A DNA stretch of 64,000 nt from Oscillospiraceae bacterium NTUH-002-81 (GTDB lineage Bacteria > Bacillota > Clostridia > Lachnospirales > Lachnospiraceae), in assembly GCA_032620915.1 (NCBI GenBank), contig CP136052.1, forward strand, positions 2,472,001 through 2,536,000, written 5' to 3'. Below are positions 2,274-31,522 of the stretch, one piece after another. Position 1 is the first letter of the stretch; the number at the start of each line of letters is the position of its first letter. The notes under the pieces were generated by a model. The model made no database searches, was not told the origin of the DNA, and worked only from the letters and a program-made list of their open reading frames with translations. The translations under genes and the position numbers were made by a program.

Positions 2274-2442
2274 CCAGTTCAGCGGTGATTTTCTTCAGGC
2301 GGATTTCGTGCTTGCACGAAAAGATGCCTGGGAAAGCACCGATTGAGCGCCATCTCATGAGCAAAAAGTAGCTGCGTCAGCAGCGGAAAGCATGACAATG
2401 CAATTTTGCGAATGGCGCGGCTGAGCTGGCGCGACTGAACTG
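2274..2442. repeat. Interspersed two-hairpin element, copy A
   Basis: The ends pair as CCAGTTCAG (from 2274) with CTGAGCTGG (2421-2429), and again with CTGAACTG (2435-2442). Hairpin 1 has nested stems CGGTG/CACCG, CAGGC/GCCTG and TTCGTGC-TT-GCACGAA. Hairpin 2 is bounded by GCGCCAT/ATGGCGC and GCAAAA/TTTTGC, with two inner stems, GCTGC-GTCA-GCAGC and GCAT-GACA-ATGC. It sits between the 3' end of the histidine kinase and the carAB promoter. No coding content is believable. The rest of the 1968-2474 gap holds only the carAB promoter and leader. Confidence 0.8.
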
Positions 2443-2474
2443 TCACCCCCAAAAACGGCAATGAGCCGGACAGC

Positions 2475-3942
2475 TTATTTGCTGTCCAGCTCAAACCAAA
2501 ATTCCACGCCATTATCCCAGTTTTTCACACCAAAAGGCTGATGCAGCGCATCCATGATGGCCTTTACAATGGAAAGACCGATGCCGCTGCCGCCGTACTC
2601 CCTGGTTCTGGCTTTGTCTACCTTATAGAATTTGTCCCAAATCCGGTCAATGTCCTCCTCCGGTATCTGTTTTCCGGTGTTGAAAACAGATACCCGCACT
2701 TTGGTGTCTTCTTTTCTCACCTTTACCTCAATGACCTTCTCAAAATCCACATGGTTCAGGGCATTGCTGAAATAGTTGGTAAACACTTCCTCGATATCAA
2801 ACTCGTCCGCCCATACATAGACCGGATCCATCTTGTCCATGCGGACAGTGACCCCCTTCTGCTCCGCTATGAGAACTGATGCGGAAAGAATGCTGTCGAT
2901 CAGGGCAATGATATCGAACCGCTCCATGACCACCTTCTGGTCACCGAATTCCAACTGGTTCAGCGTCAGCAGTTTCTTTACCATCCGGTTCATTTTCCCG
3001 GCCTCATCCATGATGACCTCGCAGTAAAATTCCCGGCTCTGAGCATCGTCGTTGACGCACTCCTGCAGCCCTTCTGCGTAGCCCTGGATGAGAGCAATGG
3101 GCGTTTTCAGTTCATGGGAAACGTTGGAAAGAAATTCCTTCCGCATCTCGTCGACCTTTGTTTTCTGCTCAATATCTCTCTGCAGCTCATTGTTGGCTGT
3201 CTTCAGTTCCGAGATCGCCTGCTCCAGCTTCTCCGCCATCTCGTTGATGTTATTGCCGAGAATGCCGATCTCATTCTTTTCTTTTCCCTCATACCGGGTC
3301 TCAAAATCCAGCTCTGACATTTTTTCTTGAAATGCCTGCCAGCTGCAGGATCGGCTCGGTGATCCGTTTGGAAATAAAGGAAATGATCACAATCCCCACC
3401 AGCACCACTGCCACACCGATATAGCCCAGAAACCGATTGGACACCGCCACACTCTCCCGGATGCTCTCGATGGGGCTTCGCAGGATAAAAATATCGCCGT
3501 TGTCCAGGCTGCCCCACAGCTCCAGATAGTCATTTTTCAGGAAAACGTCCCGCATCCGGCTCAATGTGTATCGATCCGAGGATTCCAGCGTCTCCCGATC
3601 CTTGGAACCGGAGCCGTAAATATTTTCCAGCAAACGGGTGCCCAGAATATTGCTTTCATTCACCGAAGAAATGACGGTGTGATAGCTCTGATCCAGCACG
3701 AGAATGGACATATTTCCCTTCGCCAGCGTATTTTGCAGTGTCACCTGAAAATCGTCCGTGTCCATGATATTCTCATTGCCCGCCGCATTCACCAGATCAT
3801 AGGCCGACACCAGCGCCTGTCGTTTTTTCTGCACGTAATATTTTCCAAATAAAATGTTGTTGGCCAGCCAGCAGGAAAAAATCAGCCCAGCCATGAGGGC
3901 GATAAACAAAAGCGCCAGCTGTTTTTTGATGGAATGCTTCAT
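2475..3942 (-). CDS. Membrane sensor histidine kinase, frame-broken
   Basis: Two overlapping readings make one HK of about 488 aa. The first (3942 down to 3301) has transmembrane segments at residues 9-30 and 171-191 around a sensory domain, then the start of HAMP. The second (3320 down to 2475) completes HAMP and carries the H-box [14 protein letters not shown] (His 69 of that part), the N-box [10 protein letters not shown] and the G-box [10 protein letters not shown]. The break is at a T6 run (3322-3327; A6 in the coding strand). Removing one base joins AGISRK to [12 protein letters not shown] in a normal HAMP. ATG overlaps the response-regulator stop as ATGA, so the pair is an operon. The break is probably a base-calling error. 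Confidence 0.88.
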
Positions 3943-4620
3943 TCTCCCACCTCAAACTTGTAGCCCATGCCCCAGATCGTCCGGATGTACTCTCCCTTGT
4001 CGCCCAGCTTGCTGCGCAGCTTTTTCACATGGGTATCGATGGTGCGGGCGTCGCCGAAATAGTCGTAGTTCCACACGTTGTTCAGGATTTTTTTCCCGGG
4101 AAAGGGCGATGCCCTGATTCTCCATAAAATAACTGAGCAGTTCAAATTCCTTATAGCTCAGTTCGATCTGCCGACCGTCCACCGTCACCCGGTGCGCCGT
4201 CTTGTCCACCTGTATCCCGCCGGCGCTCATCATCTCATCTTCCACCTTGCCGCCGCTGCGCCGCAGGATCGCCTCCACCCGAGCCACCAGGATCTTCGGG
4301 CTGAAGGGCTTGGAAATGTACTCATCCACGCCCAGGCTGAACCCGTTGAGCTCATCCCGCTCCTCGCCCTTGGCCGTCAGCATAATGATGGGCACCTGGG
4401 AATACTCCCGGATCTCCTTCACCACCTGCCAGCCGTCCATCCGGGGCATCATCACGTCCAGAATGATCAGATCCACATCCTTTTCTTCAAAAAACACGTC
4501 CACCGCTTCCACGCCGTCCCCGGCCTCCAGCACCGTATAGCCCTTTTTCACAAGGAAATCCTTCACCAGCTTGCGCATACGGCTCTCATCATCCACAACA
4601 AGAATCTTACACGTATCCAT
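3939..4620 (-). CDS. OmpR/PhoB-family response regulator, frame-broken
   Basis: The receiver domain has its acidic pocket at Asp 10/11, the phosphoacceptor at Asp 55 ([13 protein letters not shown]) and Lys 104 (SKPFSP). It is followed by a winged-helix DNA-binding domain. The winged helix is split: the upstream frame drifts after GIALSREK, while the correct continuation [18 protein letters not shown] lies in the next frame (4145 down to 3939). The cause is a T7 run at 4088-4094; one base less restores a 226-aa protein. It starts with a good RBS (GGGAGGAACG) and overlaps the HK by 4 nt. Target genes are unknown. Confidence 0.9.
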
Positions 4621-4791
4621 CTATCGTTCCTCCCTGTTCTTTTCTGCATGTACCATCACAATTCACACTTTCCGTGCCTGATGCAGCTTTGCAGCTATCA
4701 TGATTCCATTCAACTCTCGTCATATGCTTTTATATTAACATAATTTCGTTTCTGTGAGACCACTATACCAGATAAATATGTTAAAATTGTG

Positions 4792-4956
4792 TTTTCCAGT
4801 TCAATTATGCATGTGAGAGACGGATTTCGGGCTTGCACGAAAAGCCGGCTCACTGCATGCATAAGTTGAGCGCCATCTCATGAGCAAAAAGCAGCTGCGA
4901 TAGCAGCGAAAAGCACGGCAGTGCGGTTTTGCGAATGGCGCGGTTGAACTGGAAAA
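4792..4956. repeat. Interspersed two-hairpin element, copy B
   Basis: 165 bp with perfect 13-bp terminal inverted repeats: TTTTCCAGTTCAA (4792-4804) and TTGAACTGGAAAA (4944-4956). Hairpin 1 has a long stem, TTATGCATG-TGAG against CTCA-CTGCATGCATAA, with apical TTCGgGC-TT-GCACGAA. Hairpin 2 has GCGCCAT/ATGGCGC, GCAAAA/TTTTGC, GCTGC-GATA-GCAGC and GCAC-GGCA-GTGC. The last stem differs from copy A on both sides and pairing is kept. It ends 3 bp before the -35 box of the PfkB kinase promoter. The remainder of the 4621-5022 gap is the promoter region of the response regulator, with nothing else seen. Confidence 0.85.
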
Positions 4957-4959
4957 TAA

Positions 4960-4988
4960 TTGACAAATAAGAACGCTTTGTTTATGCT
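4960..4988 (+). promoter_or_regulatory. Promoter of the PfkB-family kinase
   Basis: TTGACA (4960-4965), 17-bp spacer, TATGCT (4983-4988). Predicted transcription start near 4995, about 28 nt before the chosen start codon. Repeat copy B ends directly upstream. Confidence 0.8.
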
Positions 4989-5022
4989 TAAAATAAGTTT
5001 TTAAATGAGAGGAATACCAAAG

Positions 5023-6147
5023 ATGGCAGGTTTGGATGTTATATGTATAGGTGCGATCAACTATGACTACATGTTTCACTGCAGCGAGGAAGACCTGATT
5101 CAAAAGGACGACAATGTGGGCAGCGAGCATTTGAGCAATCCGATCAGTGACGTGGAGAACGATATCACGGAGCTAGTCATGAAAAATAAACAGTACACGA
5201 CGCAGATCGGCGGCTCTGCTTTCATCACCCTGAAGGTGGCAAAGCACATTTTCCCGGATTTCCGCACGGCTTACGTGGGCGTCTGCGGCACCCCCACCCG
5301 GTTTGATCTGCAGTACGGCAAGACAAATCAGCTGACGGAGGAGCTGGCGCATCTGGACGACCGCCAGTGGCTGTTTACCACACAGGACCGGTTCGATGAC
5401 CCGTACGACAAGGCCATCGCCAAGTCCATTGTCCGGCTGTACAACCACACCCGCAACTGCATCAAGATCGCCCCCTGTGCCAACAATACCCTGCTGGATC
5501 GGATCCAGGAGCAGGAGGAGACCACTGGCCTTTCCTTCTCCGGCTATCTGTCCCAGACCCGGTGGATCCATCTGTCCTCCCTGTCAGATTTCGACCAGTT
5601 CGAGGCCATCATGCAGTATGTCATCGAGGCCAAGGCCATCAACCCGGCGCTCCGGGTCAGCATCGACCCGGGCTTCGAATATACGTCCCTGCACAGGGAT
5701 CGGCTGCGCCCGCTGCTCTCCCATGCGGATTACGTTTTCCTGAACAATTCGGAGAAAAAGAATCTGGGCGGCAATGAAAAGGATCTGCGGACGTTATACC
5801 GGAATCTGTGTGCGTATTTTGCCGACGCTGCACCGGACTGCACCCTGATCGTGAAGCACGATGACCGGCACGAGCTCATCACCTTCCAGGACGGCCACTG
5901 CCGCATCCGCACCACCCGGCACAAGAAACTGTACCATTACCAGCTGAACAACGACACCGGCGCCGGAGATTCCTTCGCAGGCGGCTTCATCAGCGGCATG
6001 CTCTGCGACCGGCTGAACAGCGATATCTCCCTGCCCATCCAGATGGGCGTCCTCGCCGCCAAGGGCCGGATGCTCAGTTTTGACTACGAAAATCCGTATA
6101 TCAATATTCAGAAATTCACGCAGGAATTTTTAGAGCATTTACGATAA
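5023..6147 (+). CDS. PfkB-family carbohydrate/nucleoside kinase
   Basis: A ribokinase-fold kinase of 374 aa. The ATP/anion-hole signature DTGAGDSFAGGF lies near residues 311-322 and an N-terminal IGG glycine motif (TQIGGSAF) near residue 63. The family phosphorylates sugars or nucleosides at a hydroxyl; the substrate cannot be told from sequence. The ATG at 5023 is preferred over 5005 because AGAGGA lies 9-10 nt upstream and the upstream ATG would leave almost no leader. It is monocistronic between its own promoter and a strong terminator. It is longer than a typical ribokinase (about 310 aa), with extra N-terminal sequence rich in acidic residues. Confidence 0.85.
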   Translation: MAGLDVICIGAINYDYMFHCSEEDLIQKDDNVGSEHLSNPISDVENDITELVMKNKQYTTQIGGSAFITLKVAKHIFPDFRTAYVGVCGTPTRFDLQYGKTNQLTEELAHLDDRQWLFTTQDRFDDPYDKAIAKSIVRLYNHTRNCIKIAPCANNTLLDRIQEQEETTGLSFSGYLSQTRWIHLSSLSDFDQFEAIMQYVIEAKAINPALRVSIDPGFEYTSLHRDRLRPLLSHADYVFLNNSEKKNLGGNEKDLRTLYRNLCAYFADAAPDCTLIVKHDDRHELITFQDGHCRIRTTRHKKLYHYQLNNDTGAGDSFAGGFISGMLCDRLNSDISLPIQMGVLAAKGRMLSFDYENPYINIQKFTQEFLEHLR

Positions 6148-6151
6148 TCAT

Positions 6152-6212
6152 AAAGAGACTTCACAGACTTGGGAAACATCCTCTCTCCCGATTCTGCGAA
6201 GTCTCTTTTTCT
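6152..6212 (+). terminator. Intrinsic terminator after the PfkB kinase
   Basis: AAAGAGACTTC pairs with GAAGTCTCTTT, followed by a T-rich tail. The mirror A-rich flank could also serve the converging ferredoxin gene. Confidence 0.85.
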
Positions 6213-6244
6213 TCTATCTGATGCCTTTTTCGGTTCCAGCTATC

Positions 6245-7066
6245 TTATTCTGACAGAATCTGTCCCTCGGCAGACACGACAGCCACATGCCAGGGCAGGA
6301 ATTTTCCGCTGGCCTTGATGGCATTCTTTGCCGCCATTTCCAACCCGCCGCAGCAGGGCACTTCCATCCGCACGATGGTGACGCTGCGGATATCGTTTGC
6401 TTTGATGATGGCCGTCAGCTTCTCGGTATAATCTCCTTCGTCCAGCTTCGGGCATCCGATGAGGGTGATCCGACCCCGGATGAATTTCTGATGGAAGTTT
6501 GCATAAGCGAAAGCCGTACAATCCGCCGCGATGAGAAGGTCTGCCCCCTGGAAATAAGGCGCTGTCAGCGGCACCAGCTTGATCTGGATGGGCCACTGAG
6601 AAAGTTCGCCGCCGTCCATGTTCCAGCCACCGTTTCCAGCAGCACTGCCCGGGCCGCCTGCCACAGAACCTGCACTGTCAGCCGCCATACTACTTCCGGG
6701 CACAGAACCTGCCACGCTATTTGCTGTAGCAGTGTGCCGGGGATGCAGCATCCGGGACGCAGCACCGGGGCATCCCCCTGCCGTGGGTGTCACCCGTTTA
6801 TTTTTCAGGCGCTCTTTGATCTCTTCCAGCATATTCTGGCGATTTTTTACCGCTTCCTCATCGAAATCCGCCGCTTCCCGCTGCTCAATGGTGATGGCAC
6901 CGGTGGGACAGGCCGGCAGGCAGTTGCCCAGACCGTCGCAGTAATCCTCTTTCAGAAGCACCGCCTTGCCATTGATCATGCCGATGGCCCCCTCGTGGCA
7001 GGCTGAAGCACAGGCGCCGCATCCATTACATTTATCCGCATCAATTTTTACAATATTTCTAACCAT
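6245..7066 (-). CDS. Double 4Fe-4S ferredoxin-domain protein
   Basis: The N-terminus has two 4Fe-4S sites: CNGCGACASAC (CxxCxxCxxxC) and CDGLGNCLPACP. A low-complexity Ala/Gly/Ser linker of about 35 residues follows. The C-terminal domain carries further cysteines (IGCPKLD, PCCGGLE) and could hold another metal or redox site. Likely a cytoplasmic electron carrier or redox sensor of anaerobes. Start 7066 (MVRNIVKIDADK) is chosen for the AGGAGGAAG ribosome binding site; an in-frame ATG at 7087 lacks one. It is divergent from the Crp/Fnr regulator, which may control it. Confidence 0.8.
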   Translation of the reverse strand: MVRNIVKIDADKCNGCGACASACHEGAIGMINGKAVLLKEDYCDGLGNCLPACPTGAITIEQREAADFDEEAVKNRQNMLEEIKERLKNKRVTPTAGGCPGAASRMLHPRHTATANSVAGSVPGSSMAADSAGSVAGGPGSAAGNGGWNMDGGELSQWPIQIKLVPLTAPYFQGADLLIAADCTAFAYANFHQKFIRGRITLIGCPKLDEGDYTEKLTAIIKANDIRSVTIVRMEVPCCGGLEMAAKNAIKASGKFLPWHVAVVSAEGQILSE

Positions 7067-7161
7067 AAAACTTCCTCCTCGTTTCATATTTTTTCATCAC
7101 AGTTCACCCGTATGCAATCCAACAAATGGTGCCCGTGAACTGCGTTTTGTCATGTATTCCC

Positions 7162-7190
7162 TTGACTTACAGGACAGATCATAATACAAT
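7162..7190 (+). promoter_or_regulatory. Promoter of the Crp/Fnr-family gene
   Basis: TTGACT (7162-7167), 17-bp spacer, TACAAT (7185-7190), about 44 bp before the ATG. It lies in the divergent region shared with the ferredoxin gene. Confidence 0.7.
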
Positions 7191-7233
7191 ACAGGAAATT
7201 AATCCGTTGTATTTCCAACAAAGGAGATTTTTT

Positions 7234-7935
7234 ATGAAAAAAGAACTACTCACGCCGGAGGACATCCGGCTGCTCTCCCACAATCCGCTGCTGCGCGGTT
7301 TTTCTGAAAATGATTGCAAGAAACTGCTGACGGCCCTTCGCGCAGCCGTCCGCTCCTATCCGAAAAATACCGAGATCCTGTCCGCCGGTTCTCCCGCCAC
7401 CCAGATCGGCATTGTGCTGGAGGGCAGCGCCCAGGTCATTTCCTCCGATGTATTCGGCAACCAGACGATCTTCGGCATGATCGAGCCGCCGGATCTGTTT
7501 GCGGAGGCGTTCTGCTGCGCGGGCTCGCCGGCCATCCCGGTGAGCGTGCTGGCCGTCCGCCCCACCCGGGTACTGTTTCTGACCTATCCCGGCACCCCGA
7601 CACCGAACCAGAGCCCCGCAGATGCTTCCCTGCATATGAAACTGATGGAAAATATGGTGCGTGTCCTGGCCTCCAAAAATCTCATGCTGAACGAAAAGCT
7701 CCGTTGCCTGTCCCGGCGCTCCACACGAGAAAAACTGCTGGCCTATCTGTCCTCCCGGGCCAGAGCTGCCAGCAGCCTTACTTTTTCCATTCCCTTTAAC
7801 CGGCAGGAGCTGGCCGATTATCTCTGCGTGGATCGCAGCGCCATGTCCGCCGAATTGTCCCGCCTCCGCCAGGAAGGTATCCTCGATTTCGACCGCAGCC
7901 AGTTTCGCCTGCATGCGGACTGGACGGAGGAATAG
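7234..7935 (+). CDS. Crp/Fnr-family transcriptional regulator
   Basis: 233 aa. An N-terminal cyclic-nucleotide-binding-like beta-roll (about 20-125; ILSAGSPATQIGIVLEGSAQ) is followed by the dimer helix and a C-terminal Crp-type helix-turn-helix (about 165-225; NRQELADYLCVDRSAMSAEL). The four-cysteine Fe-S motif of Fnr is not present, so the signal is unknown. ATG 7234 has AAAGGAG upstream; the longer reading back to 7126 crosses the promoter and is rejected. The divergent ferredoxin gene is the obvious candidate target. Confidence 0.9.
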   Translation: MKKELLTPEDIRLLSHNPLLRGFSENDCKKLLTALRAAVRSYPKNTEILSAGSPATQIGIVLEGSAQVISSDVFGNQTIFGMIEPPDLFAEAFCCAGSPAIPVSVLAVRPTRVLFLTYPGTPTPNQSPADASLHMKLMENMVRVLASKNLMLNEKLRCLSRRSTREKLLAYLSSRARAASSLTFSIPFNRQELADYLCVDRSAMSAELSRLRQEGILDFDRSQFRLHADWTEE

Positions 7936-7937
7936 GT

Positions 7938-8510
7938 TTATAGCAAATATCTGTTTACTTTTTTCTTATATTCCCGGTAATCGTCTCCAAATGCCGCATC
8001 CAGAAATGGTTCTTCCACCCTTACGATCTGCAGGTGAAACATGAACATCGCAGCAGCAGAAAACACCAAGAGAATCCCGTGAAAAAACATCAGCAGGATC
8101 CCAATATACACCATATCAAAACCAAGAAAGGCCGGATTCCTACTCAGCTGATAAATCCCGTCTGTAACAAGCGCCGTCTGCTCTGTTTCTGAGACGCCGG
8201 CGCGCCAGCTGTCTTTCATTGTCCGGACCGAAATCACAAACACCACATCTCCCAAAAGCGCCAGCACGATCCCCAAGTATCTGACCCATCCAGGCAGCCC
8301 GCTTATATTCCGGTAAATACTCATCAGCTCAACCAGCGGAACCAACAGCGTTGTCACTTTCATCGTCAGTTCGATGGTTCTGGCCTCTCCCGTCTTTCCT
8401 TTTCCCATTTGATCTGTCTGTATTCCTTTTCGCCGCTGGGCAAGCATTTTACTGAAATAACAGCCATAAAAGATAGCTAAAATCATCACTGCGGTTAATT
8501 GAACTGCCAT
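7938..8510 (-). CDS. Isoprenylcysteine/phospholipid methyltransferase-like membrane protein
   Basis: 190 aa with several hydrophobic segments. The C-terminal block (GIYQLSRNPAFLGF, then VEEPFLDAAFGDDYREYKKKV) is characteristic of the ICMT/PEMT SAM-dependent membrane methyltransferase family. Substrate unknown. Start 8510 follows GAAGGAGGGGCG; an upstream ATG at 8543 lies on the other side of this site. It ends 3 nt from the converging Crp gene. Confidence 0.8.
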   Translation of the reverse strand: MAVQLTAVMILAIFYGCYFSKMLAQRRKGIQTDQMGKGKTGEARTIELTMKVTTLLVPLVELMSIYRNISGLPGWVRYLGIVLALLGDVVFVISVRTMKDSWRAGVSETEQTALVTDGIYQLSRNPAFLGFDMVYIGILLMFFHGILLVFSAAAMFMFHLQIVRVEEPFLDAAFGDDYREYKKKVNRYLL

Positions 8511-8582
8511 TTGCGCCCCTCCTTCTCCAAGAGCAGATACCACTCACAAAATTTCATTTTCACAACTGGAAGTTATTTACTT

Positions 8583-8897
8583 CTACCTTTTCGGTTTCGG
8601 AACCGGCAGTTCATCATACATTGCATGAAACAAGCCTGTCAAAAATTCCTTATTATCAACTTCATTTACCAGCAACATCTCTTTTGCTCCCTCATAGGGT
8701 AATTCATACGGAGCTGTCGGCATATAACTAATTGCTGATTTTACTGGTTTAACAAGTAATCTATCATCATAGATACCGCCTACAATCTTGCCGCGATAAT
8801 AAATAATAAATTCTCCCATCATAGCTCGATAAGTAATTTCTTCTAACTCAGATAGCTGTCCTAAAATAAACTCTAAGTATTCCTTGCTTGATGCCAT
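8583..8897 (-). CDS. TfoX/Sxy N-terminal-domain protein
   Basis: 104 aa matching the TfoX N-terminal domain alone (EEITYRAMMGEFIIYYRGK, then GGIYDDRLLVKP). In gammaproteobacteria full-length TfoX promotes competence; stand-alone N-domain proteins in Firmicutes have no settled role. More AT-rich than the genes to its left, and it begins the accessory patch that runs to about 13.35 kb. Confidence 0.8.
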   Translation of the reverse strand: MASSKEYLEFILGQLSELEEITYRAMMGEFIIYYRGKIVGGIYDDRLLVKPVKSAISYMPTAPYELPYEGAKEMLLVNEVDNKEFLTGLFHAMYDELPVPKPKR

Positions 8898-8949
8898 GTT
8901 TCCACCTCAAATCCTAATTTATTCTATGCTTTCTCACTCTCATCTTCTT

Positions 8950-9088
8950 GCCATTCGGACAAGAAGCATCCCTCGCTCACAGAGCTCGGTCAATTCCGAT
9001 TTGTTCCATTCATTTCAAACCCATCATCCTGCCCTTCGGACAGGAAGTATCCCTCGCTCACAGAACTCGGTCAATCCCGATTTTCCAG
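8950..9088. repeat. Two direct repeats with an 81-bp period
   Basis: About 57 bp starting at 8950 (GCCATTCGGACAAGAAG...) recurs from 9031 (GCCCTTCGGACAGGAAG...) with few changes. The shared block is followed by TCCCTCGCTCACAG and CTCGGTCAAT. It fills the gap between the TfoX-like and Fic genes. No start signals support the short readings that cross it. Confidence 0.75.
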
Positions 9089-9118
9089 TTCTGTAAAATA
9101 GAATATTCTTTACACTCT

Positions 9119-10054
9119 TTAGAATGTTTTCCAGCACTTTTCTTTTAAGAATGTACTAATATCCTCAATAGTTTCACCTTCATAATAGGCAACCAATTTC
9201 TTTTTAAACTCTGGAACATGTTCTTCCGGAATTACCAAAAAGCCCTGTCCATGTGCAATAAGAAAATGATTTGCAAATATCACAGAAGCACGCTTGTTTC
9301 CATCAATAAATATTTGTGTTTTCATACTATACATGCAGAGATTGATCGCAATATCGATTGCCTCTTTTTCTGACATTAGGATCTCCTGAATGCTTTCTTT
9401 TACAAGAGTTTCAACTGGTATTGGTGGTTTATATGAACTGCCTCCGATTGTAACAGGTACTCCCCTTATTCTGCCCCCATCATGAAAAAAACCTTCATTA
9501 ACTAATTTAGCTATATGACATAACAAATAGTAATCTGACTTTGCCTGTATAACATCTGTGTCCAGAATAAATTCCCATGCATGTTTTAAATTTAATATTT
9601 TTTGTATATCACTTGCCGTCATCCCACTGACTGTGCCATTATCTATAATATCTTCTGTTTGTGGAAAAGAGGTTGCAACACCTTCCAATACTGCCTGATC
9701 ATATATATTGGCTTTCATATTAGCTCTGGCAAAATCCAGATTTTGAGCCACCCTTATGCTTAGATCTGTAGCCTCATATCCTAATTCTGCCAGTCTTTTT
9801 TCAATTTTTCTTATATTCTTTTTTAGTGTTCTAAGTTCCTTGGCATTTCTTAATAAAAGCTGATACAAGTCTTCCGAATAAACATCCACATACGTGGAAG
9901 TCAGTCGGCTGCCAATACGTTTTCTCATATATAAATATTTGCCACTTGCATTTTCCTTTATTTCCGGATTTCCATCATACGGAATCAGATTCATTCTTGC
10001 CTGAAAATCTGCTTTTTCCTGAAGCAACGATTGAATCTCATGAAAGCTATCCAT
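9119..10054 (-). CDS. Fic-family protein with altered active-site motif
   Basis: 311 aa. The Fic core contains QIFIDGNKRASVIFANHF near the C-terminus. In canonical AMP-transferases the first position of HPFxDGNGR is the catalytic His; here Gln occupies it. As I recall, this Q-type motif defines a common Firmicute Fic subfamily, so it may be a different activity rather than a dead enzyme. The N-terminal half is coiled (DLYQLLLRNAKELRTLKKNIRKIEK). Start 10054 (MDSFHEIQ) or 10066 follows AAAGGAG. The reading extends upstream to 10360 but there overlaps the flavodoxin gene and looks non-coding. Confidence 0.8.
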   Translation of the reverse strand: MDSFHEIQSLLQEKADFQARMNLIPYDGNPEIKENASGKYLYMRKRIGSRLTSTYVDVYSEDLYQLLLRNAKELRTLKKNIRKIEKRLAELGYEATDLSIRVAQNLDFARANMKANIYDQAVLEGVATSFPQTEDIIDNGTVSGMTASDIQKILNLKHAWEFILDTDVIQAKSDYYLLCHIAKLVNEGFFHDGGRIRGVPVTIGGSSYKPPIPVETLVKESIQEILMSEKEAIDIAINLCMYSMKTQIFIDGNKRASVIFANHFLIAHGQGFLVIPEEHVPEFKKKLVAYYEGETIEDISTFLKEKCWKTF

Positions 10055-10241
10055 GACTATATTCATCTCCTTTAGGGAACTTTTCTCTTGTAATTCTATC
10101 AAAAAGTTCCCTAAGAAGCAACAAAAAATAAAAGCGACATGGTGAACGGATGGAACGATAAGGAGATCAGATACGACGAGAGCAATATTTGCAGAATACA
10201 ATCCACCCAGAAACAGCATTGATGGATAATACCGGCACAGG

Positions 10242-11015: not shown

Positions 11016-11023
11016 CTATCTCC

Positions 11024-11184
11024 TTATCCAAGACCTGCAAATTTCACAAGAAGCGTATGTGGAATCAGCTTTGCAAGCAATCGGTAGCATTTATAAAATG
11101 CTCCGGTAGTGTAAACGGCTCTGCCTTTCTTTGCTGCTTTTAAAGATTTCAAAGCAGCAACCTTCGGGTCGATGAAATGTTTCA
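11024..11184 (-). pseudogene. C-terminal remnant of a short-chain dehydrogenase
   Basis: The reading FIDPKVAALKSLKAAKKGR followed by LLAKLIPHTLLVKF resembles the tail of DltE/YdfG-type short-chain dehydrogenases. The cofactor-binding N-terminus is missing. It is replaced within about 10 bp by an aldo/keto reductase remnant on the other strand. The longer reading to 11302 is antisense to that remnant. Confidence 0.6.
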
Positions 11185-11440
11185 GGAGCCTGCGGTGCTC
11201 TCCCTTGCTGAAAAATACCGGAAAACGCCCGCGCAGGTATTGCTTCGTTTCCTGACCCAAAAGGACATCATCGTTATTCCGAGAAGCACAAACCCGGAAC
11301 ATATCCGGGAGAATTTTGATCTGTTTGATTTTAAACTGACCACAGCTGAAATGGCACAGCTTTCTGCTCTGGATAAAAAAGAGCCGTTGATCGGCAGACC
11401 AGAGACACCGGAGCTGGTAGAATTTTCGCTGACATGGTAG
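11172..11440 (+). pseudogene. C-terminal remnant of an aldo/keto reductase
   Basis: LAEKYRKTPAQVLLRFLTQK, then VIPRSTNPEHIRENFDLFDF is the classic C-terminal third of an AKR (NADPH-binding end), about 87 residues. The first 200 or so residues, with the catalytic Tyr, are absent, so it cannot be functional. It abuts the SDR remnant tail-to-truncation, marking a deletion or recombination junction near 11175. Confidence 0.75.
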
Positions 11441-11455
11441 AGGGATATATCCCCC

Positions 11456-12307
11456 CTACCCCCGCACCGGTGAATTTTCCGGCTTGAGCGGGCCATAATA
11501 ATAAGATGATGTTGCACCGCCGTCGATCAGGAAGGTAGAGCCTGTGATAAATGCTCCCTTGTCGCTCATCAGAAGTTCTGCCACATTTGCCACTTCGTCT
11601 GCGGTTCCCGGTCTTCCTGCGGGGCACTTTGCAAACATATTTTTGTAGAAATCTCCGCGCGGACCGTTGAATTCATCCACGGCAAGCGGTGTCACGATGA
11701 TGCCCGGTGCGATGTCGTTTAATCTTGCGCCGCGCTTGCCCCACGCTACCGACTGTGCCATGACACGCTTCTCATTGCAGCGTTTTGCCATCTGGTATGC
11801 GTGAAGGGTATCTCTGATGTTTTCCGGCTGTAAAATCTCAAGATTTAACAGTTCTTCGGTGGGTGTCGTTGCCAGCGCGGCATCTTCCTCTGCGGTAAGC
11901 TGCGGCATTCTCCATCCGGACTGGCTGGAAATGGTCACGCCGCAGCCGCCCTCTGCGATCACCTTTCCAACTTCTTCCAGCAAAACAGCCGTGCCGTACA
12001 GATCCACTTTTAAGATTGCTTCGATGGGCGCCTGGCTCGGGGAAACACCGGCTCCGTTTACCAGCATTTTGATCTCCCCATATTCCTGTGCTTTTGCAAT
12101 CAGACTTAAAATGGACGCTCTGGAAGAAAGATTCATCTCCACCGGTTCCACATCAAAACCGGCATTGTTCATGATCTCTGCGATCGCCTTTGCATTCTTT
12201 ATATTTTTATCGCCCATAACGATTTTTTTGCCGTATCCCACTCTTCTGGCGATTGCCATGGAAATCTGTCCTGCACCAGTTACGATCATTACTTCTTTTT
12301 TACGCAT
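11456..12307 (-). CDS. Short-chain dehydrogenase/reductase
   Basis: 283 aa. The Rossmann cofactor loop is TGAGQISMAIAR at the N-terminus, the NGAG motif follows beta-4 (LVNGAGVSPS), the catalytic YxxxK is YQMAKR, and FLIDGG is near the end. NAD(P)-dependent oxidoreductase of unknown substrate. It has a longer than usual insertion (about 150-175) before the active site. RBS AGGAGGAGC. It has its own promoter and is divergent from a LysR gene that probably regulates it. Confidence 0.88.
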   Translation of the reverse strand: MRKKEVMIVTGAGQISMAIARRVGYGKKIVMGDKNIKNAKAIAEIMNNAGFDVEPVEMNLSSRASILSLIAKAQEYGEIKMLVNGAGVSPSQAPIEAILKVDLYGTAVLLEEVGKVIAEGGCGVTISSQSGWRMPQLTAEEDAALATTPTEELLNLEILQPENIRDTLHAYQMAKRCNEKRVMAQSVAWGKRGARLNDIAPGIIVTPLAVDEFNGPRGDFYKNMFAKCPAGRPGTADEVANVAELLMSDKGAFITGSTFLIDGGATSSYYYGPLKPENSPVRG

Positions 12308-12371
12308 AGCTTTCTGCTCCTCCTAAATGAATCTACATTCCTGTTGATGTTCTTTTCCTTTTGATGTCCTT

Positions 12372-12400
12372 ATCATAATGCAATGTCACTTCTCAATCAA
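12372..12400 (-). promoter_or_regulatory. Promoter of the short-chain dehydrogenase gene
   Basis: On the minus strand TTGATT (12395-12400), 17-bp spacer, TATGAT (12372-12377). It lies back-to-back with the LysR promoter. Confidence 0.65.
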
Positions 12401-12418
12401 ATCTTTATTCTTATCATA

Positions 12419-12447
12419 TTGATTAGCTTTACTAATCGTTGTATAAT
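12419..12447 (+). promoter_or_regulatory. LysR promoter with overlapping inverted-repeat operator
   Basis: TTGATT (12419-12424), 17 bp, TATAAT (12442-12447). The inverted repeat GATTAG-CTTTA-CTAATC (12421-12437) overlaps the -35 box and spacer. It is placed as expected for autoregulation and for control of the divergent dehydrogenase. Confidence 0.7.
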
Positions 12448-12482
12448 ACAGACAGCATGTGAAAAAAGGAGGAATACCGCTT

Positions 12483-13424
12483 ATGCTCTTACGTCAAATG
12501 GAATATTTACAGGCTGTTATTGAAAACGGAAATTTCTATCTGGCAGCAGAACAGTGTCATGTCTCACAGTCTGCCATTTCCCAACAGATCAAAAAATTAG
12601 AAGACGAACTCGGGGTCAAACTACTGGAAAGACATAACCGTACCTTTTCTCTGACACCGGCCGGCGAGCATTTTTATCGGAAAAGCCTGATCATCTCAGG
12701 AGATCTGAAGCATCTTATCCGGGAAACGAAGAAAATTGCGAATAATGATCATGCTGTTTTACGGATCGGATATTATAAAGGATATCATGGAAATGAACTC
12801 TCAGAAGCGATCGCTCTGTTTTCTGAAAAATACCCGGCTGTAGACGTGGAAATCACGGTGGGAAGTCATGAAGAACTGTATCATGCGATGGAAAATGACT
12901 CGATCGATCTTGCAATCAATGATCAACGGCGTGCGTTTTCCGATGCCTATCGGAATGAAATACTCGCAGAAAGTAACATTTATATTGAGCTTTCTGCCAA
13001 AAATCCTCTCAGTAAACTGGACACGCTGGAAACGGATGACCTGAAAAATATGCCCTGCATTCTGGTCATCAACCAGGCAGGGCAACAGGAAGAACAAAAT
13101 TATTATGAAAATATCATCGGACTGCATGGAGATTTTCTGTTTGCAGATACCATTCAGGAAGCACGCTTAAAAATCATAACCGGTCAAGGTTATCTGCCGG
13201 TTGATGTGATCGGGGAACAGGCCTGGTTTGACACCGTTGTCAGCAGAATTCCGCTGTACCGGAATAACCAGCCTGTTCGAAAAATTTACTGTGCTTTCTG
13301 GAGAAAAGATAACTCAGGGTATTATATAGAAGACTTTGCTGAAATGCTTCATTCCTGTTTTTTCAGCATCTCTTCCATGGTGTGCCATCCCAGCACCGCA
13401 CATTTGACCCGGGCGGGCATATGA
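12483..13424 (+). CDS. LysR-family transcriptional regulator
   Basis: 313 aa. The N-terminal winged helix is diagnostic (MLLRQMEYLQAVIENGNFYL, AAEQCHVSQSAISQQIKKLE), followed by the periplasmic-binding-protein-like effector domain. Start 12483 follows AAGGAGGAATACC. The last 25 or so codons (after AEMLHSC) are antisense to the 3' end of sufU and look like read-through past a lost natural stop. That suggests a recombination boundary near 13350. It probably controls the divergent SDR gene; the effector is unknown. Confidence 0.88.
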   Translation: MLLRQMEYLQAVIENGNFYLAAEQCHVSQSAISQQIKKLEDELGVKLLERHNRTFSLTPAGEHFYRKSLIISGDLKHLIRETKKIANNDHAVLRIGYYKGYHGNELSEAIALFSEKYPAVDVEITVGSHEELYHAMENDSIDLAINDQRRAFSDAYRNEILAESNIYIELSAKNPLSKLDTLETDDLKNMPCILVINQAGQQEEQNYYENIIGLHGDFLFADTIQEARLKIITGQGYLPVDVIGEQAWFDTVVSRIPLYRNNQPVRKIYCAFWRKDNSGYYIEDFAEMLHSCFFSISSMVCHPSTAHLTRAGI

Positions 13425-13777
13425 GAAATATCCTGCAGAGCGATAGCTTCCTCCAGCTCTTCCAGGTCTTCTTCTTTGATGGTGCCCTTGATCATCTGTA
13501 AAAACAGATCCGCCAGGTGCAGCGCTTCCTCTTTCTTCTTTCCGATGATCAGCTCCAGCATGATGTCCGCAGACGCCTGGGAAATGGCGCAGCCGCTGCC
13601 CACAAAGGAGCCGTCCACGATCTCGTCATTTTCCACCTTTAATTTCAGAAAAATATCGTCGCCGCAGCTGGGGTTGACCCCTTCCAGCACCATGTTGGCG
13701 TCCGGCAGGTCATGCTTGTGCATGGGCCGCATGTTGTGATCTGTCAAAATTTCGTTATAAAATGTTCTATTCGCCAT
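13349..13777 (-). CDS. sufU: SufU iron-sulfur assembly protein
   Basis: 142 aa with the three conserved cysteines: Cys 38 (NPSCGDD), Cys 63 (GSGCAIS) and Cys 126 (ARVKCAVLGW). In Firmicutes SufU is a zinc-containing sulfur acceptor that takes persulfide from SufS and passes it to SufBCD. It overlaps sufS by 11 nt and is the last gene of the suf operon. No terminator is visible, and its 3' end overlaps the LysR gene tail. Confidence 0.94.
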   Translation of the reverse strand: MANRTFYNEILTDHNMRPMHKHDLPDANMVLEGVNPSCGDDIFLKLKVENDEIVDGSFVGSGCAISQASADIMLELIIGKKKEEALHLADLFLQMIKGTIKEEDLEELEEAIALQDISHMPARVKCAVLGWHTMEEMLKKQE

Positions 13778-14993
13778 ATCCCATTCTCCTTCTCACAGAA
13801 CCGACGCTCTCCACCAGGGCGTCAATCTCTTCCACCGTATTGTAAAAATACAGGCTGGCCCGGGTGGTGGAAGACACGCCCAGATAGTCCATCAGCGGCT
13901 GGGCACAGTGATGACCTGCCCGGACATCCACGCCGTCCGCATCCAAAATGGCGCTGATATCGTGGGGATGCACATCATCAATGGTGAACGTCAGGATGCC
14001 GCAGTGCTCCTCGGCTTTGTCAGAGCCCAGCACATGCACATGGGGAATGGCCTGCAGCTCTTCCAGTGCCCGGCGGGTCAGCGCCGTCTCGATAGTATGC
14101 ATTTTTTCAAAACCAATGCTTTCAATATATTGGATGGCCGCCGCCAGTCCTGCTGCACCGGCGGCATTTACCGTGCCCGCCTCAAACTTATGGGGCAGCT
14201 CCGCAAACACGGCGCCCTCTCTCGTCACAGAAGAGATCATCTCGCCGCCGGTGAGGAAGGGCGGCATCTGCTCCAGCCATTTTTCTTTTCCATATAAAAC
14301 ACCGATGCCCATGGGCCCCATGAGCTTGTGGCCGGAAAATGCCAGAAAATCGGCATCCAGCTCCTGCACGTCAATGGCCATATGGGGCGCACTCTGGGCC
14401 GCGTCGATGACGACCACCGCGCCGCGCGCATGGGCCATCTGGATGATCTTCCGAATGGGATTTTCCCGGCCCATCACGTTAGACACCTGGGCAATGGCCA
14501 CCAGTTTTGTCTTGTCGGAAAATCCGGCATCCAGCCGTTCCTGGGGGAGGCTGCCATCCATCTCACATTCCAGGAATTTCAGCACCGCACCTGTTTTTCT
14601 GGCAACCATCTGCCAGGGCAGCAAATTGCTGTGGTGCTCCATGATGCTCACCAGGATCTCATCCCCAGGCTTTAAAAAGGTCAGGCCATAGCTGTAGGCC
14701 ACCAGGTTCAGGCTTTCTGTCGTATTTCTTGTAAAAATAATTTCACGCTCGGAAGCGGCATGCAAGAATTTCCGCACAGTCTCTCTGGCATCCTCGTAGG
14801 CGTCCGTAGCCGCCATGCTCAGTTCGTACAGCCCTCTGAGCGGGTTGGCATTGCTGTGCTCATAAAACTGCTTCTCCGCTTCCATCACACAGACCGGCCG
14901 CTGGGCCGTGGCCGCATTGTCCAGATAAGCGGCCTTTTCTTCCAGCAGCAGCGGGAAATCTTTTCTGTATGGATTTTCTCTGTAATCAGCCAT
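13767..14993 (-). CDS. sufS: Cysteine desulfurase SufS
   Basis: 408 aa, full length for the class II desulfurase group. The PLP lysine is in FSGHKLMGPMGIG (Lys 223) and the persulfide cysteine in DVRAGHHCAQPLMD (Cys 363). It removes sulfur from cysteine for Fe-S assembly with SufU. It overlaps sufD by 8 nt and sufU by 11 nt, consistent with translational coupling. Confidence 0.96.
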   Translation of the reverse strand: MADYRENPYRKDFPLLLEEKAAYLDNAATAQRPVCVMEAEKQFYEHSNANPLRGLYELSMAATDAYEDARETVRKFLHAASEREIIFTRNTTESLNLVAYSYGLTFLKPGDEILVSIMEHHSNLLPWQMVARKTGAVLKFLECEMDGSLPQERLDAGFSDKTKLVAIAQVSNVMGRENPIRKIIQMAHARGAVVVIDAAQSAPHMAIDVQELDADFLAFSGHKLMGPMGIGVLYGKEKWLEQMPPFLTGGEMISSVTREGAVFAELPHKFEAGTVNAAGAAGLAAAIQYIESIGFEKMHTIETALTRRALEELQAIPHVHVLGSDKAEEHCGILTFTIDDVHPHDISAILDADGVDVRAGHHCAQPLMDYLGVSSTTRASLYFYNTVEEIDALVESVGSVRRRMGYGE

Positions 14994-16053
14994 GGAATAC
15001 CTCCTCCAGGTACTTCTGTACCTGCTGGGACAGTGCTTCGTCTCCCAGTCTTCTGCTCAGGGCGTCGATCCGGGCTCTTGCCACCATTTTGCACGCTTCC
15101 TCCCGGCTCATGCCCCGGGAAACGAGATAAAACAGCAGCTCATCGTCCAGCTTGCCGATGGATGCGCCGTGGTTGCCCTCCACATCCTCCTCTGCACAGA
15201 GGATCAGCGGGATTGTCCGGTTTACCACGCCTTCATCCATGAGCAGGACGTCCTCCTTCTCGTCGCCGGAAGAGCCTGCGGAACCGTTCCGGAAATCAAT
15301 GGTGCCCCGGAACAGCTTGGATGCATGATCCCACAGCACACCGGAGGCGGTCATATCACTTCTCGTCTTTTTCCCTTTATGGACAGCCTCATAGTTAAAG
15401 TCATAGCTCTGGGTCTCTCTTCCCAGATAGCCGATGTCCGCTGCCATGGAGCTGCCTTTGCCTGCCAGATCTGCCCGACATCCGGCATAGGTTTTCCCGG
15501 CTCCCAGAAACAGCTGCAGCGTCTCAAAACGGCCTTCATCCGCGCAGGACACGCCCACATCGTTGAGCTTCTGCTCCTGGCTACTTAACAGCTGCACCTG
15601 TACGAGGCGCACTTTGGCGCCTTTTTTCACATCTGCCCGGAACTGCAGGGCCAGCGTACCGCCAGCCTCTTCTTTTACCCCGGTATCGTCCACAAAAACT
15701 GTGATCTCACTGTCTTCCTCTGCGGCGATCTCCACCGGCAGGAAAGCACTCTCCCCGGGTTTTCTCTGGATGTGCAGGCGGAGCACCTGCTCTTTCACCC
15801 CGGCAGGGACGGTCACCTGTACCGGCTCCATGCTGCCCGCTTTTCGCAGAGCGTCCATATCCGGGCCCATGCCGGTCTCTATTTTTTCAAAACAGGGCAA
15901 TTCTTCCCCGCGGATGCCTTCCTCAAGCCCCATGGAAAGATCTTTTTCTATGTATGCCTCCCCTGCGGTAACGGCACTGTCCACCCGGCTGTCGTTCATA
16001 TGCAGCGCATTCCAGGTAAGTGACGGCAGGTGGTTTACTCTCATATTTTCCAT
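14986..16053 (-). CDS. sufD: Fe-S cluster assembly protein SufD
   Basis: 355 aa SufB/SufD-family protein. The C-terminal beta-helix core ends with SIGKLDDELLFYLVSRGMS, the family block that precedes EEACKMVARA. It forms the SufB-SufC-SufD scaffold. The N-terminal half is weakly conserved as usual for SufD. It lies between sufB and sufS, with a 19-bp gap to sufB. Confidence 0.93.
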   Translation of the reverse strand: MENMRVNHLPSLTWNALHMNDSRVDSAVTAGEAYIEKDLSMGLEEGIRGEELPCFEKIETGMGPDMDALRKAGSMEPVQVTVPAGVKEQVLRLHIQRKPGESAFLPVEIAAEEDSEITVFVDDTGVKEEAGGTLALQFRADVKKGAKVRLVQVQLLSSQEQKLNDVGVSCADEGRFETLQLFLGAGKTYAGCRADLAGKGSSMAADIGYLGRETQSYDFNYEAVHKGKKTRSDMTASGVLWDHASKLFRGTIDFRNGSAGSSGDEKEDVLLMDEGVVNRTIPLILCAEEDVEGNHGASIGKLDDELLFYLVSRGMSREEACKMVARARIDALSRRLGDEALSQQVQKYLEEVFHG

Positions 16054-16072
16054 TGTCCATTCCTCCTTTTCC

Positions 16073-17486
16073 TTACCCGATGCTGCCCTTCATTTCCAGC
16101 TGGATCAGATTGTTCATTTCCACCGCGTACTCCAGCGGCAGCTCCTTGGATACGTTGTCCGCAAAACCGCTGACGATCATGGCCCGGGCTTCCTCCTCGC
16201 TGATGCCGCGGGACATGAGATAAAATACCGCTTCATCGCTGATGCGGCCGATCCGCGCCTCATGACCCACATCGGCATCCGCGGTGCGGATGTCCATGGC
16301 CGGGATCGTATCCGACCGGGAAATGGTGTCCAGCATCAGAGACTGACAGGAAACGGCGGAACGGGATTTCTTCGCTTCCCCGGTGACCACCACGGAGCTT
16401 CGGAAGGTACTGATACCGCCGTCCTTGGAAATGGAACGGGTATTCATATAGGAAGAGGTTTCCGGTGCCGCGTGCACCACCTTGGCGCCCGTGTCCAGAT
16501 TCTGACCCTTGCCCGCGAAGGTGATGCCGGTGAATTCCATCCGGGCACCTTTTCCCTTCAGGATACTCATGGGATACAGGTAGGAAACGTGGGAACCAAA
16601 GGAGCCGGATACCCATTCAATGGTACCGCCTTCTTCCACCAGCGCCCGCTTGGTGTTCAGGTTGTACATATTTTTCGACCAGTTCTCAATGGTGGAATAC
16701 CGCAGCTTGGCGTTCTTGCCCACAAACAGCTCCACACAGCCTGCATGCAGGTTGGCGATGTTGTACTTCGGTGCGGAACAGCCCTCGATGAAATGCAGGG
16801 ATGCGCCCTCATCCACGATGATCAGCGTGTGCTCAAACTGTCCGGCGCCCGGTGCATTTAACCGGAAATAAGACTGCAGCGGAATTTCCACGGAAACACC
16901 CGGCGGCACATATACGAACGATCCGCCGGACCAGACAGCCCCGTGCAGGGCGGCAAACTTGTGGTCGGTGGGTTTTACCAGCTTCATGAAATGCTTGCGC
17001 ACCATGTCGGCGTACTCCCCTTTCAGGGCACTTTCCATATCGGTATACACAACGCCCTGCTCGGCCACCTCCTGGCGCACATTATGGTACACCAGCTCGG
17101 AATCGTACTGGGCGCCCACACCGGCCAGGGATTTCCGCTCCGCCTGGGGAATGCCCAGCCGCTCGAACGTATCCTTGATGTCCTGAGGCACCTCCGACCA
17201 TTTGGCCGTCATCCGGGTGTTGGGACGGACGTAGGTCACAATGTGGCTCATATCCAACCCTTCGATGGACGGGCCCCACTCGGGCACCTTCAGTTCATTG
17301 TAAATCTGCAGAGACTGCAGTCGGAAAAGCTCCATCCAGGCCGGATCCTTTTTCTCCTTTGAAATCTGCTGCACGATGTCCGGTGTCAGCCCTTCCTCCA
17401 GCTTGAAGGCGTCCTTTTCCTCATCTTTGATATCGTATATGCTTCGGTCTATGTCCTCCACATAAGTCTTTTTCTTCTTTTTCCAT
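16073..17486 (-). CDS. sufB: Fe-S cluster assembly protein SufB, frame-broken near start
   Basis: 470 aa after correction; the body is a normal SufB (VEDIDRSIYDIKDEEKDAF at the start, HEARIGRISDEAVFYLMSRG near the end). The ATG at 17486, with AGGAGGACAACG upstream, is one base out of frame with the rest. Removing one base from either A5 run just after it (17478-17482 or 17469-17473) gives MEKKKKTYVEDIDRS, the expected N-terminus. The uninterrupted reading instead runs back into sufC without a start signal. The likely cause is homopolymer over-calling. Confidence 0.93.
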
Positions 17487-17507
17487 GTCGTTGTCCTCCT
17501 GCTGCCC

Positions 17508-18251
17508 TTATCCAAGGAAGGATTCAAAGCCGTGCTCGTTGATCTCATCCACCAGTGATGCGTCGCCGGTGCGGACGATCCGTCCGTCCACCAGTACGTG
17601 CGTGTAATCCACATGCAGTGCCTCCAGAATTCTGGTGCTGTGGGTGATGATCAGCAGACCGCCGTCCCGCCGCTTCTGGTACTCTTCCACGCCCTCGGAA
17701 ACGGTGCGTACCGCATCCACATCCAGGCCGGAATCCGTCTCATCCAGGATGGCCAGTGACGGATTGAGCATGAGCAGCTGCAAAATCTCCGCTTTCTTTT
17801 TCTCACCGCCGGAAAATCCCACGTTCAAGTCACGCTCGGCGTAGGAGGGATCCATCTGCAAAAGCTTCATGTTCTTGTTCAGCTCCCGCTGGAACTCCCA
17901 CAGGCGGATCCGGCTGCTGCTGCGCTGCTCACAGGCGTTGCGGATAAAGCTGCCCAGGGACAGACCGGCCACCTCCATAGGGCTCTGAAAGGAAAGAAAC
18001 AGGCCATCCTTCGCCCGCTTGTCCGCGCCCTCCTGGCTGATCTCCTTTCCCTGAAAATAAATCTCGCCGCCGGTAATATGATATTTCGGATGTCCCATCA
18101 GCGCATAGCCCAGCGTGGATTTGCCCGCCCCGTTGGGCCCCATCAGCACATGGGTCTCTCCTTTATTAATCTTCAAACTCACACCGTGAAGGATCTCCTT
18201 CTCCTCCACGTTTACGGATAAATTGTTCACTTCCAGTAATGTATTCGACAT
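17508..18251 (-). CDS. sufC: Fe-S assembly ATPase SufC
   Basis: 247 aa ABC ATPase: Walker A GPNGAGKST, signature FSGGEKKKAEIL, Walker B LAILDETDSGLD and switch His in ITHSTR. It drives conformational changes of SufBD during cluster assembly. It is the first gene of the operon, with a promoter about 60 bp upstream and RBS CGGAGGATAC. Confidence 0.96.
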   Translation of the reverse strand: MSNTLLEVNNLSVNVEEKEILHGVSLKINKGETHVLMGPNGAGKSTLGYALMGHPKYHITGGEIYFQGKEISQEGADKRAKDGLFLSFQSPMEVAGLSLGSFIRNACEQRSSSRIRLWEFQRELNKNMKLLQMDPSYAERDLNVGFSGGEKKKAEILQLLMLNPSLAILDETDSGLDVDAVRTVSEGVEEYQKRRDGGLLIITHSTRILEALHVDYTHVLVDGRIVRTGDASLVDEINEHGFESFLG

Positions 18252-18310
18252 AAGTATCCTCCGTTCTGTTTTTTACCCTTTTTAACCTACTATTTTCATA
18301 GGCTGAATGT

Positions 18311-18339
18311 ATTGTAACCCCAATTACCCACAAAGTCAA
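18311..18339 (-). promoter_or_regulatory. sufC: Promoter of the sufCBDSU operon
   Basis: On the minus strand TTGACT (18334-18339), 17-bp spacer, TACAAT (18311-18316). Repeat copy C begins 11 bp upstream at 18350. The divergent Rrf2 gene is the expected regulator; an operator could not be fixed by eye. Confidence 0.8.
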
Positions 18340-18349
18340 TAGGTTGATT

Positions 18350-18513
18350 CCCGCAGTTCACTCGGATGTTCTTGTGGACAGATTTCATGCTTGCATGAAA
18401 ATCTGGATACATGAACATCCGAAGAGAGCGCCTTCTCATGAGCAAAAATGAGCTGCGCAGCAGCGGAAAGCATCGCAGATGCGGTTTTGCGAATGGCGCG
18501 GGTGAACTGCGGG
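18350..18513. repeat. Interspersed two-hairpin element, copy C
   Basis: 164 bp with perfect 12-bp terminal inverted repeats: CCCGCAGTTCAC (18350-18361) and GTGAACTGCGGG (18502-18513). Hairpin 1 is GGATGTTC/GAACATCC, then CAGATTTCATGC-TT-GCATGAAAATCTG. The tip TTCATGC/GCATGAA carries paired changes relative to copy A (TTCGTGC/GCACGAA). Hairpin 2 has GCAAAA/TTTTGC, GCTGC-GCA-GCAGC and GCATC-GCA-GATGC; here the outer GCGCCTT/ATGGCGC stem is partly mismatched. It occupies the divergent sufC-Rrf2 region. Confidence 0.85.
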
Positions 18514-18645: not shown

Positions 18646-18654
18646 ATAGAAAAA

Positions 18655-18694: not shown

Positions 18695-18739
18695 GGAATT
18701 GCCGCTTATGAGCAGAAAAGAAAGAAGGACTCTGATCTT

Positions 18740-31401: not shown

Positions 31402-31428
31402 ATTTTCATCTTCCTTCTTGAAACAACA

Positions 31429-31500: not shown

Positions 31501-31522
31501 CATTTCATGATTTTACCTGTAT

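Follow-up and report, generated by a model that had tools for sequence, protein, structure and literature searches.

The two-hairpin repeat and its fold

The window analysed here, a stretch of 64,000 nucleotides from contig CP136052.1 of Oscillospiraceae bacterium NTUH-002-81 (positions 2,472,001 to 2,536,000), carries three full copies, A, B and C, of an element made of two hairpins between inverted repeats, all on the forward strand. Copy A (2269-2434) lies between an open reading frame (ORF) without a Pfam family and a histidine-kinase gene, copy B (4791-4957) between genes that Pfam assigns to a response regulator and a pfkB-type kinase, and copy C (18348-18515) between genes for an ABC-transporter ATPase and an Rrf2-type regulator. 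The copies score 141.4, 158.6 and 181.3 bits, respectively, against R1, a covariance model built from 38 full copies of the same genome. The R1 boundaries of each copy take in a few flanking bases, and the 3' end of copy A could be either GCTGAGCTG near 2429 or TGAACTG at 2442. Chance origin of the repeats is excluded by the covariation shuffles described below and by the shared block GAGCGCCNTCTCATGAGCAAAAA, which occurs three times in the window with no mismatch (shuffles: mean 0.00, largest 0, even at three mismatches). The 3' block TTTTGCGAATGGCGC taken alone, with up to three mismatches, gives four matches where 3.2 are expected and so does not exceed chance by count; all four matches are exact.

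In the consensus fold, the inverted repeats form a terminal stem, followed by hairpin I and then by hairpin II, which encloses two short hairpins. In copy B the cores of the terminal repeats are CAGTTCA (4797-4803) and TGAACTG (4945-4951). Hairpin I (4805-4864) has a variable, compensated stem with the tip GCTTGC, while hairpin II (4870-4941) consists of an outer stem, a tandem G·A, an inner stem and the two short hairpins, which together make a three-way junction. The two GA dinucleotides of the tandem (4882-4883 within TGAG, 4933-4934 within GCGAA) are invariant in 38 of 38 own copies, and a looser pattern with both sides of the tandem is present in 72 of 76 copies of other genomes. The folding energy of copy B is -68.7 kcal/mol (z -5.3) on the given strand and -64.0 kcal/mol (z -6.0) on the opposite one.

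The stems covary. Across the 38 own copies, both sides have changed in 31 of 51 pairs (19.5 in shuffles), 94.7% of cells pair (82.9% in shuffles), and 232 cells are compensated, against 64.2 in shuffles and 29-46 in slid controls. None of 500 shuffles was as high on any of five measures; this control ignores relatedness among the copies, whereas the slid control does not. At the base of hairpin I, 206 of 226 cells are Watson-Crick, where 49% would be expected were the two sides independent. Identity by column is 99% in the motif and core, 39% in the linker and 25-29% in the flanks. The original prediction, which described the three copies with their stem variants and took compensatory change as a sign of a maintained fold, is thus borne out on both counts, and the family proved to be larger than the three copies on which it was based.

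A BLAST-type search of the own genome with copy B found 48 places, partial ones included, and at least 46 matches to R1 were obtained at E values up to 0.01. Scripted delimitation gave 42 hairpin-II cores, 39 of them with both ends; the alignment uses 38 of these, a copy at 2081566 that lacks hairpin I having been left out. By crude ORF calls, the genes around the 39 copies are arranged in all possible ways: 14 opposite/opposite, 10 divergent, eight same/same, six convergent and one open. Among 61 genomes (the own genome and relatives from its genus, family and order), R1 matched in 18 and found nothing in 43, with at least 46 matches in the own genome (G000), 32 in G006, 21 in G032, five in G015 and between one and five in each of the other matching genomes; the genomes of the own genus have at least 46, two, one and one. 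These are counts over at most 46 candidates per genome (at most 38 for the Rfam model discussed below), so that high values are lower bounds. R1 was also run on 77 chosen loci, 46 of which came from 80 listed loci of named genomes, mostly one per genome. The pattern scan of named genomes behind that list returned at least 120 stretches, of which the 80 listed come almost entirely from Lachnospiraceae or from loosely named Eubacteriales, Clostridiales and Bacillota, and include Blautia, Mediterraneibacter, Eisenbergiella, Acetatifactor, Eubacterium ramulus, Catenibacillus, Claveliimonas and Roseburia, along with a single Novosphingobium match that is probably due to chance. Two arrays stand out: four copies head to tail with end repeats in common in G015 (C3:77374-78022; L184), and three core matches 99 bp apart at another locus (L319).

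The window holds further pieces that the original prediction had missed. Directly after copy C lies a tandem partial copy with hairpin II and the right end (18520-18602, forward strand), an 83-bp unit 93% identical to 18437-18519. An end-only remnant, read by eye, follows at 18651-18695 (forward strand), with CAGTTCAGCC and GGCTGAAC as its ends around a short interior. A copy with both ends and hairpin I and without hairpin II lies on the reverse strand at 31421-31508 (R1, 39.1 bits, E 4.9e-8), and a bona fide member of the Rfam family Clostridiales-1 (RF01699) was found at 51237-51404 on the forward strand, between genes for an NMT1-like protein and a tRNA methyltransferase (137.5 bits, cut-off 48). 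The histidine-kinase gene beside copy A (2475-3942, reverse strand) appears to be broken up into two ORFs that overlap in different frames, one of 281 aa with the kinase domains and one of 213 aa without a Pfam family, the result of either a frameshift in the gene or a sequencing error. Two other repeats of the window are apparently unrelated to the element: three tandem units of 36 bp at 20256-20363, which are 75-78% identical to a reference copy, and a 69-bp repeat at 8934-9083 with a spacing of 81 bp and 86% identity.

Ends, target duplications and a candidate mobiliser

Recent copies in G006 and G032 are bounded by 14-bp ends, GTAACAGTTCAGCC and GGCTGAACTGTTAC. In G006, direct 8-bp repeats were read by eye (TGTTGATA, TGTTAAAA, TATTTTAC, TTTTTGGT and TATTTTTT), other copies having imperfect repeats or none. 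Within 2,100,509 bases of loci, overlaps included, 88 distinct elements have these ends with at most two end mismatches in total; they span more than one element family, and 53 are 163-165 bp long. Their 8-bp flanks match at seven or eight positions in 48 of the 88, 29 perfectly, whereas seven slid controls gave 2, 2, 1, 0, 0, 0 and 0 of 88; with a looser end criterion the flanks match in 54 of 168 elements. Counts of ends at up to one mismatch against a control were 259 and 0 in G032, 235 and 1 in G187, 190 and 4 in G179, 52 and 1 in G006, 30 and 1 in G001, and 7 and 3 in the own genome. Species in which these ends are abundant include Catenibacillus scindens and Mediterraneibacter catenae. 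Miniature inverted-repeat transposable elements (MITEs) mobilised by insertion sequences (IS) form a general class, being short, with inverted ends, target duplications and a partner element with similar ends. In the relatives, inverted repeats are present at both ends together with a target site duplication, and the combination of GTAA ends and 8-bp duplication is that of elements mobilised by IS66, a family in which an 8-bp target duplication is the general rule.

Several other small elements came to light. A second abundant MITE in G032 (L190-L214), 173-174 bp long, has the same ends, clear 8-bp duplications and an interior of unrelated sequence; by eye, its layout is analogous, with a hairpin followed by a three-way junction that carries a tandem G·A-like GCGAG/CGAGC. 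Solo 32-bp elements in G001 (L397, L400) are little beyond two ends facing each other. In the own genome, three near-identical stretches running from GTAACAATTCAGCCTGTTTTTCTGTCGAAATCAAAG to TCGGACATTTGTGTAACATTTGTAG (1336472, 1343016 and 1814380; L387, L388) differ in the sequence beyond and perhaps represent an unrelated repeated promoter region.

The copies of the own genome have diverged ends that are mostly still complementary. Their flanking 8 bp match at a mean of 2.55 of eight positions, against 2.19 at other offsets, and the duplications are therefore mostly gone. Two copies keep seven and six of the eight positions, and in the nine copies with a 5' end no more than one mismatch away from GTTACAG the mean is 4.3, whereas the remaining 29 have 2.0 (p 0.001, by a rule set after looking). 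Provided that the own copies had duplications when they inserted, their fold has lasted longer than these, an indication that it was constrained after insertion. The genes on either side of copy B are about 2 kb apart in three sisters from the own genus; no copy match was reported there, and none of the three offers a clean empty site.

A candidate mobiliser was found in G182 (Candidatus Blautia faecipullorum; locus L428, also the genome of L240). It is a 1,817-bp element with the ends GTAACAGTTCAGCA and GTAACTATTCAGCC and one ORF of 499 aa, which matches Pfam DDE_Tnp_IS66 (PF03050) with 88.6 bits (cut-off 23.1) together with DUF6444, and the NCBIfam IS66 model with 154 bits, below its cut-off of 180. 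The 8 bp to the right of the L428 element (GAACTGCT) recur to the left of the end of another copy at a contig border. A search of 24 genomes with this protein matched three: G182 itself, G185, where the gene is broken into pieces, and G032, where 111 residues remain at a contig end. A perfect GTAACAGTTCAGCC lies upstream of the transposase part in G032, and G185 has an end with two mismatches at the expected place, so that ends in common with an autonomous element are present in three of the 24 genomes, both ends being seen in one. The 499-aa protein found no match in the own genome. From the shared ends we infer mobilisation of the short element in trans by such an IS66-like transposase; its trans activity remains at that level because the transposase was found in three of 24 genomes and not in several element-rich ones.

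Common IS66 elements were considered as the partner and rejected, since PF03050 matched nothing in the own genome, G032 or G015 and several local IS66 have ends of the GTAAGCGTCAAATA type. The divergent IS66-like form described above, whose ends do fit, later qualified this rejection. In G006, neither of the two IS66 loci has matching ends within three mismatches. Unpaired ends in G032 and other genomes gave 58 candidates, and 10 neighbouring ORFs searched in Pfam included no transposase (one had no family). The element and its partner resemble the IS66 family in the PF03050 transposase, GTAA ends and 8-bp duplications (the last measured for two other IS66 elements, L363 and L373); the partner departs from the usual IS66 in being a divergent single-ORF form whose ends differ from the GTAAGCGTCAAATA type. 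The original suggestion of a MITE-like element is supported by the inverted repeats at the termini, the 8-bp duplications of the target, the patchy copy number and the transposase that has like ends in other genomes.

Relation to Clostridiales-1

Copies A, B and C match nothing in Rfam at gathering thresholds. At permissive settings they match RF01699 over the full model and below its cut-off of 48, with 30.3 bits for copy A (E 5e-4), 31.1 bits for copy B (E 3e-4) and 35.1 bits for copy C; when copy B is aligned, hairpin III, with 34 model positions, is passed over. A weak match to Flavo-1 also appeared at permissive settings (18.4 bits, cut-off 42). The own genome has 91 RF01699 matches at E values up to 1, 45 above the cut-off and 46 below; among the latter, 24 overlap with a short copy over at least 100 bases. 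Because its match to RF01699 is full-length and sub-threshold, and because those 24 matches overlap short copies, the short form is best described as a sibling of Clostridiales-1, not as a member. The original prediction of an undescribed noncoding RNA or regulatory family is weakened accordingly, as this sibling relation is joined by a distribution and a mixed orientation that are those of an inserted repeat; the label of an undescribed RNA is right only in part. The three copies score 30-35 bits and lack hairpin III.

The two forms share the order and strand of hairpin I, with its GCTTGC tip, and of hairpin II, with its ATGAG.A ... CGAAT tandem G·A core, as well as a terminal closing stem and a high copy number in some genomes. 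Both sides of the tandem G·A, by the looser pattern, are present in 26 of the 27 Clostridiales-1 copies that make up our own alignment, drawn from the 45 above the cut-off. Unlike Clostridiales-1, the short form stays below 48 bits, has no hairpin III, and has other ends with an 8-bp rather than an about 6-bp duplication. RF01699 matched in 26 of the 61 genomes, above the cut-off in 20, and its counts within the own genus are at least 39, at least 37, five and one. Weinberg et al. 2010 (PMC2864571) list Clostridiales-1, which they give for Clostridiales and the human gut, in their table as probably an RNA and probably without a cis-regulatory role.

The Clostridiales-1 copies examined here themselves look mobile, as a second element with duplications of about 6 bp. 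In the examined loci, 25 distinct elements of 183-246 bp run from a TGATRCC-like start to a CAACATC-like end, and 24 of the 25 are, by locus, RF01699 matches, the remaining one being L266. In 16 of the 25, the six-base flanks are the same on both sides, and 20 have at most one difference; over a grid of offsets the median identity is 35%, and lengths of 5 to 7 bp fit about equally. In G030, two Clostridiales-1 copies (L147, L148) carry an extra hairpin of about 50 nt with CGACCGAAGCGGAGCGTA, whose internal position differs between the two; it may be a mobile hairpin of even smaller size.

Interpretation and alternatives

Our data support a MITE family with a conserved fold that is sibling to an Rfam family which here also looks mobile, copies A, B and C being old members of the MITE family. 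As a whole, we favor the explanation, at a probability of roughly 0.7, that this MITE family was mobilised by an IS66-like transposase and that its fold was selected after insertion, most likely as a structured RNA. In this model, an IS66-like transposase or a close relative would bind the GTAACAGTTCAGCC ends and, acting in trans, move the presumably gene-less element of about 160 bp into AT-rich DNA between genes. The interior is a folded module, hairpin I plus the three-way-junction hairpin II with its invariant tandem G·A, which it has in outline in common with Clostridiales-1; the latter apparently rides in another mobile element with ends of its own. Selection would still act, after insertion, on the given strand's fold in the own genome, most likely because read-through transcripts contain it as a structured RNA and the insertion thereby becomes tolerable or useful. 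The original idea of domestication as a structured RNA may hold.

Several observations weigh against this explanation. Crude ORF calls of at least 60 aa overlap 29 of the 39 own copies, and we therefore claim an intergenic position for the window copies only. No duplication of at least seven positions is present in 40 of the 88 elements, and the complete L428 copy is not itself flanked by a direct repeat. The transposase was found in only three of 24 genomes, partial or broken in two of these, and was not matched in the element-rich G006, G179 and G187. Maintenance after insertion assumes that the own copies arrived with a duplication, and the RNA part is argued from sequence and fold. In mostly Watson-Crick pairs, moreover, the own copies have 32 G·T and 36 A·C cells, which is unexpected for RNA; other choices of pairs give 28 and 22 or 44 and 22, the difference being one pair.

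The last point bears on an alternative that we regard as unlikely but deserving of serious consideration, namely that the functional form is DNA: a cruciform, a protein-binding palindrome of the REP/BIME kind, or a hairpin of single-stranded DNA on which transposition depends. The two strands fold almost equally well, and G·T and A·C are nearly balanced in the own copies and among one-side changes in recent copies of G032 (8 and 7) and recent RF01699 copies of G005 (7 and 5), whereas tRNA acceptor stems, a small and partly spurious control of 28 distinct predictions, gave 10 and 1. On the other hand, G·T exceeds A·C in the short copies of other genomes (77 and 42, in an alignment fitted to the model that may favor G·T), in the own RF01699 copies (47 and 14) and in recent G006 copies (28 and 15), and one pair of the own copies, at columns 36/68, has G·T in 16 of the 38. 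A clear RNA-type excess of G·T is thus missing from the short form and present in the RF01699 copies of the own genome, and these counts do not settle RNA versus DNA. The tandem G·A, invariant on one strand only, speaks against a DNA form and favors one folded single strand. We rank RNA ahead of DNA as the functional form, short of proof.

We consider it quite improbable that the complementarity of the arms is a by-product of template switching between them during replication, with no selection on the fold. In recent G006 copies several neighboring pairs do change together (18 copies, with 29 both-side changes that preserve pairing), and G·T intermediates are few in the own copies, as such switching would predict; it leaves unexplained, however, the invariant unpaired G·A letters and the core in common with a second element. 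About as improbable are stand-alone noncoding RNA genes, small RNAs like Clostridiales-1 that spread by ordinary duplication and act in trans, since the full-length sub-threshold RF01699 match on the same strand, the strong fold and the one-stranded conservation of the tandem G·A are set against target duplications, inverted ends, patchy copy numbers of both forms within the genus and mixed orientation to neighboring genes.

The element resembles IS-mobilised MITEs in its short length, inverted ends, target duplications and a partner with the same kind of ends. It differs from them in that its interior is a strongly constrained fold found also in another mobile element, and in that no partner was found in the own genome. 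REP/BIME, Correia, ERIC and BOX repeats are likewise palindromic and present in many copies; by description, the present element differs from them in size, ends, 8-bp duplications and its IS66-like partner. The kind of element is already known. The combination, a MITE with a conserved fold that is sibling to a mobile-looking Rfam family, is undescribed in the titles and abstracts listed by our searches on Clostridiales-1, on repeats or MITEs in Lachnospiraceae, Clostridia or Blautia, and on the end sequence.

More tentatively, and as a possibility to which we would give somewhat less than even odds, two mobile elements with different ends and duplication lengths (8 bp with IS66-like ends, about 6 bp with TGAT...ATC ends) carry the same folded core, which is still under selection once the elements have died. 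If true, the core would be a portable module of structured RNA, or of single-stranded DNA, adopted by transposons for the benefit of the element or the host, and Clostridiales-1 would be recast as its other carrier. The results on the MITE family as such provide an orphan Rfam RNA family with an evolutionary identity, and they show that a bacterial repeat family with strong covariation can be a mobile element. With the ends, the duplication length and a candidate transposase at hand, both the mobility of the element and the role of its fold are directly testable in common gut bacteria.

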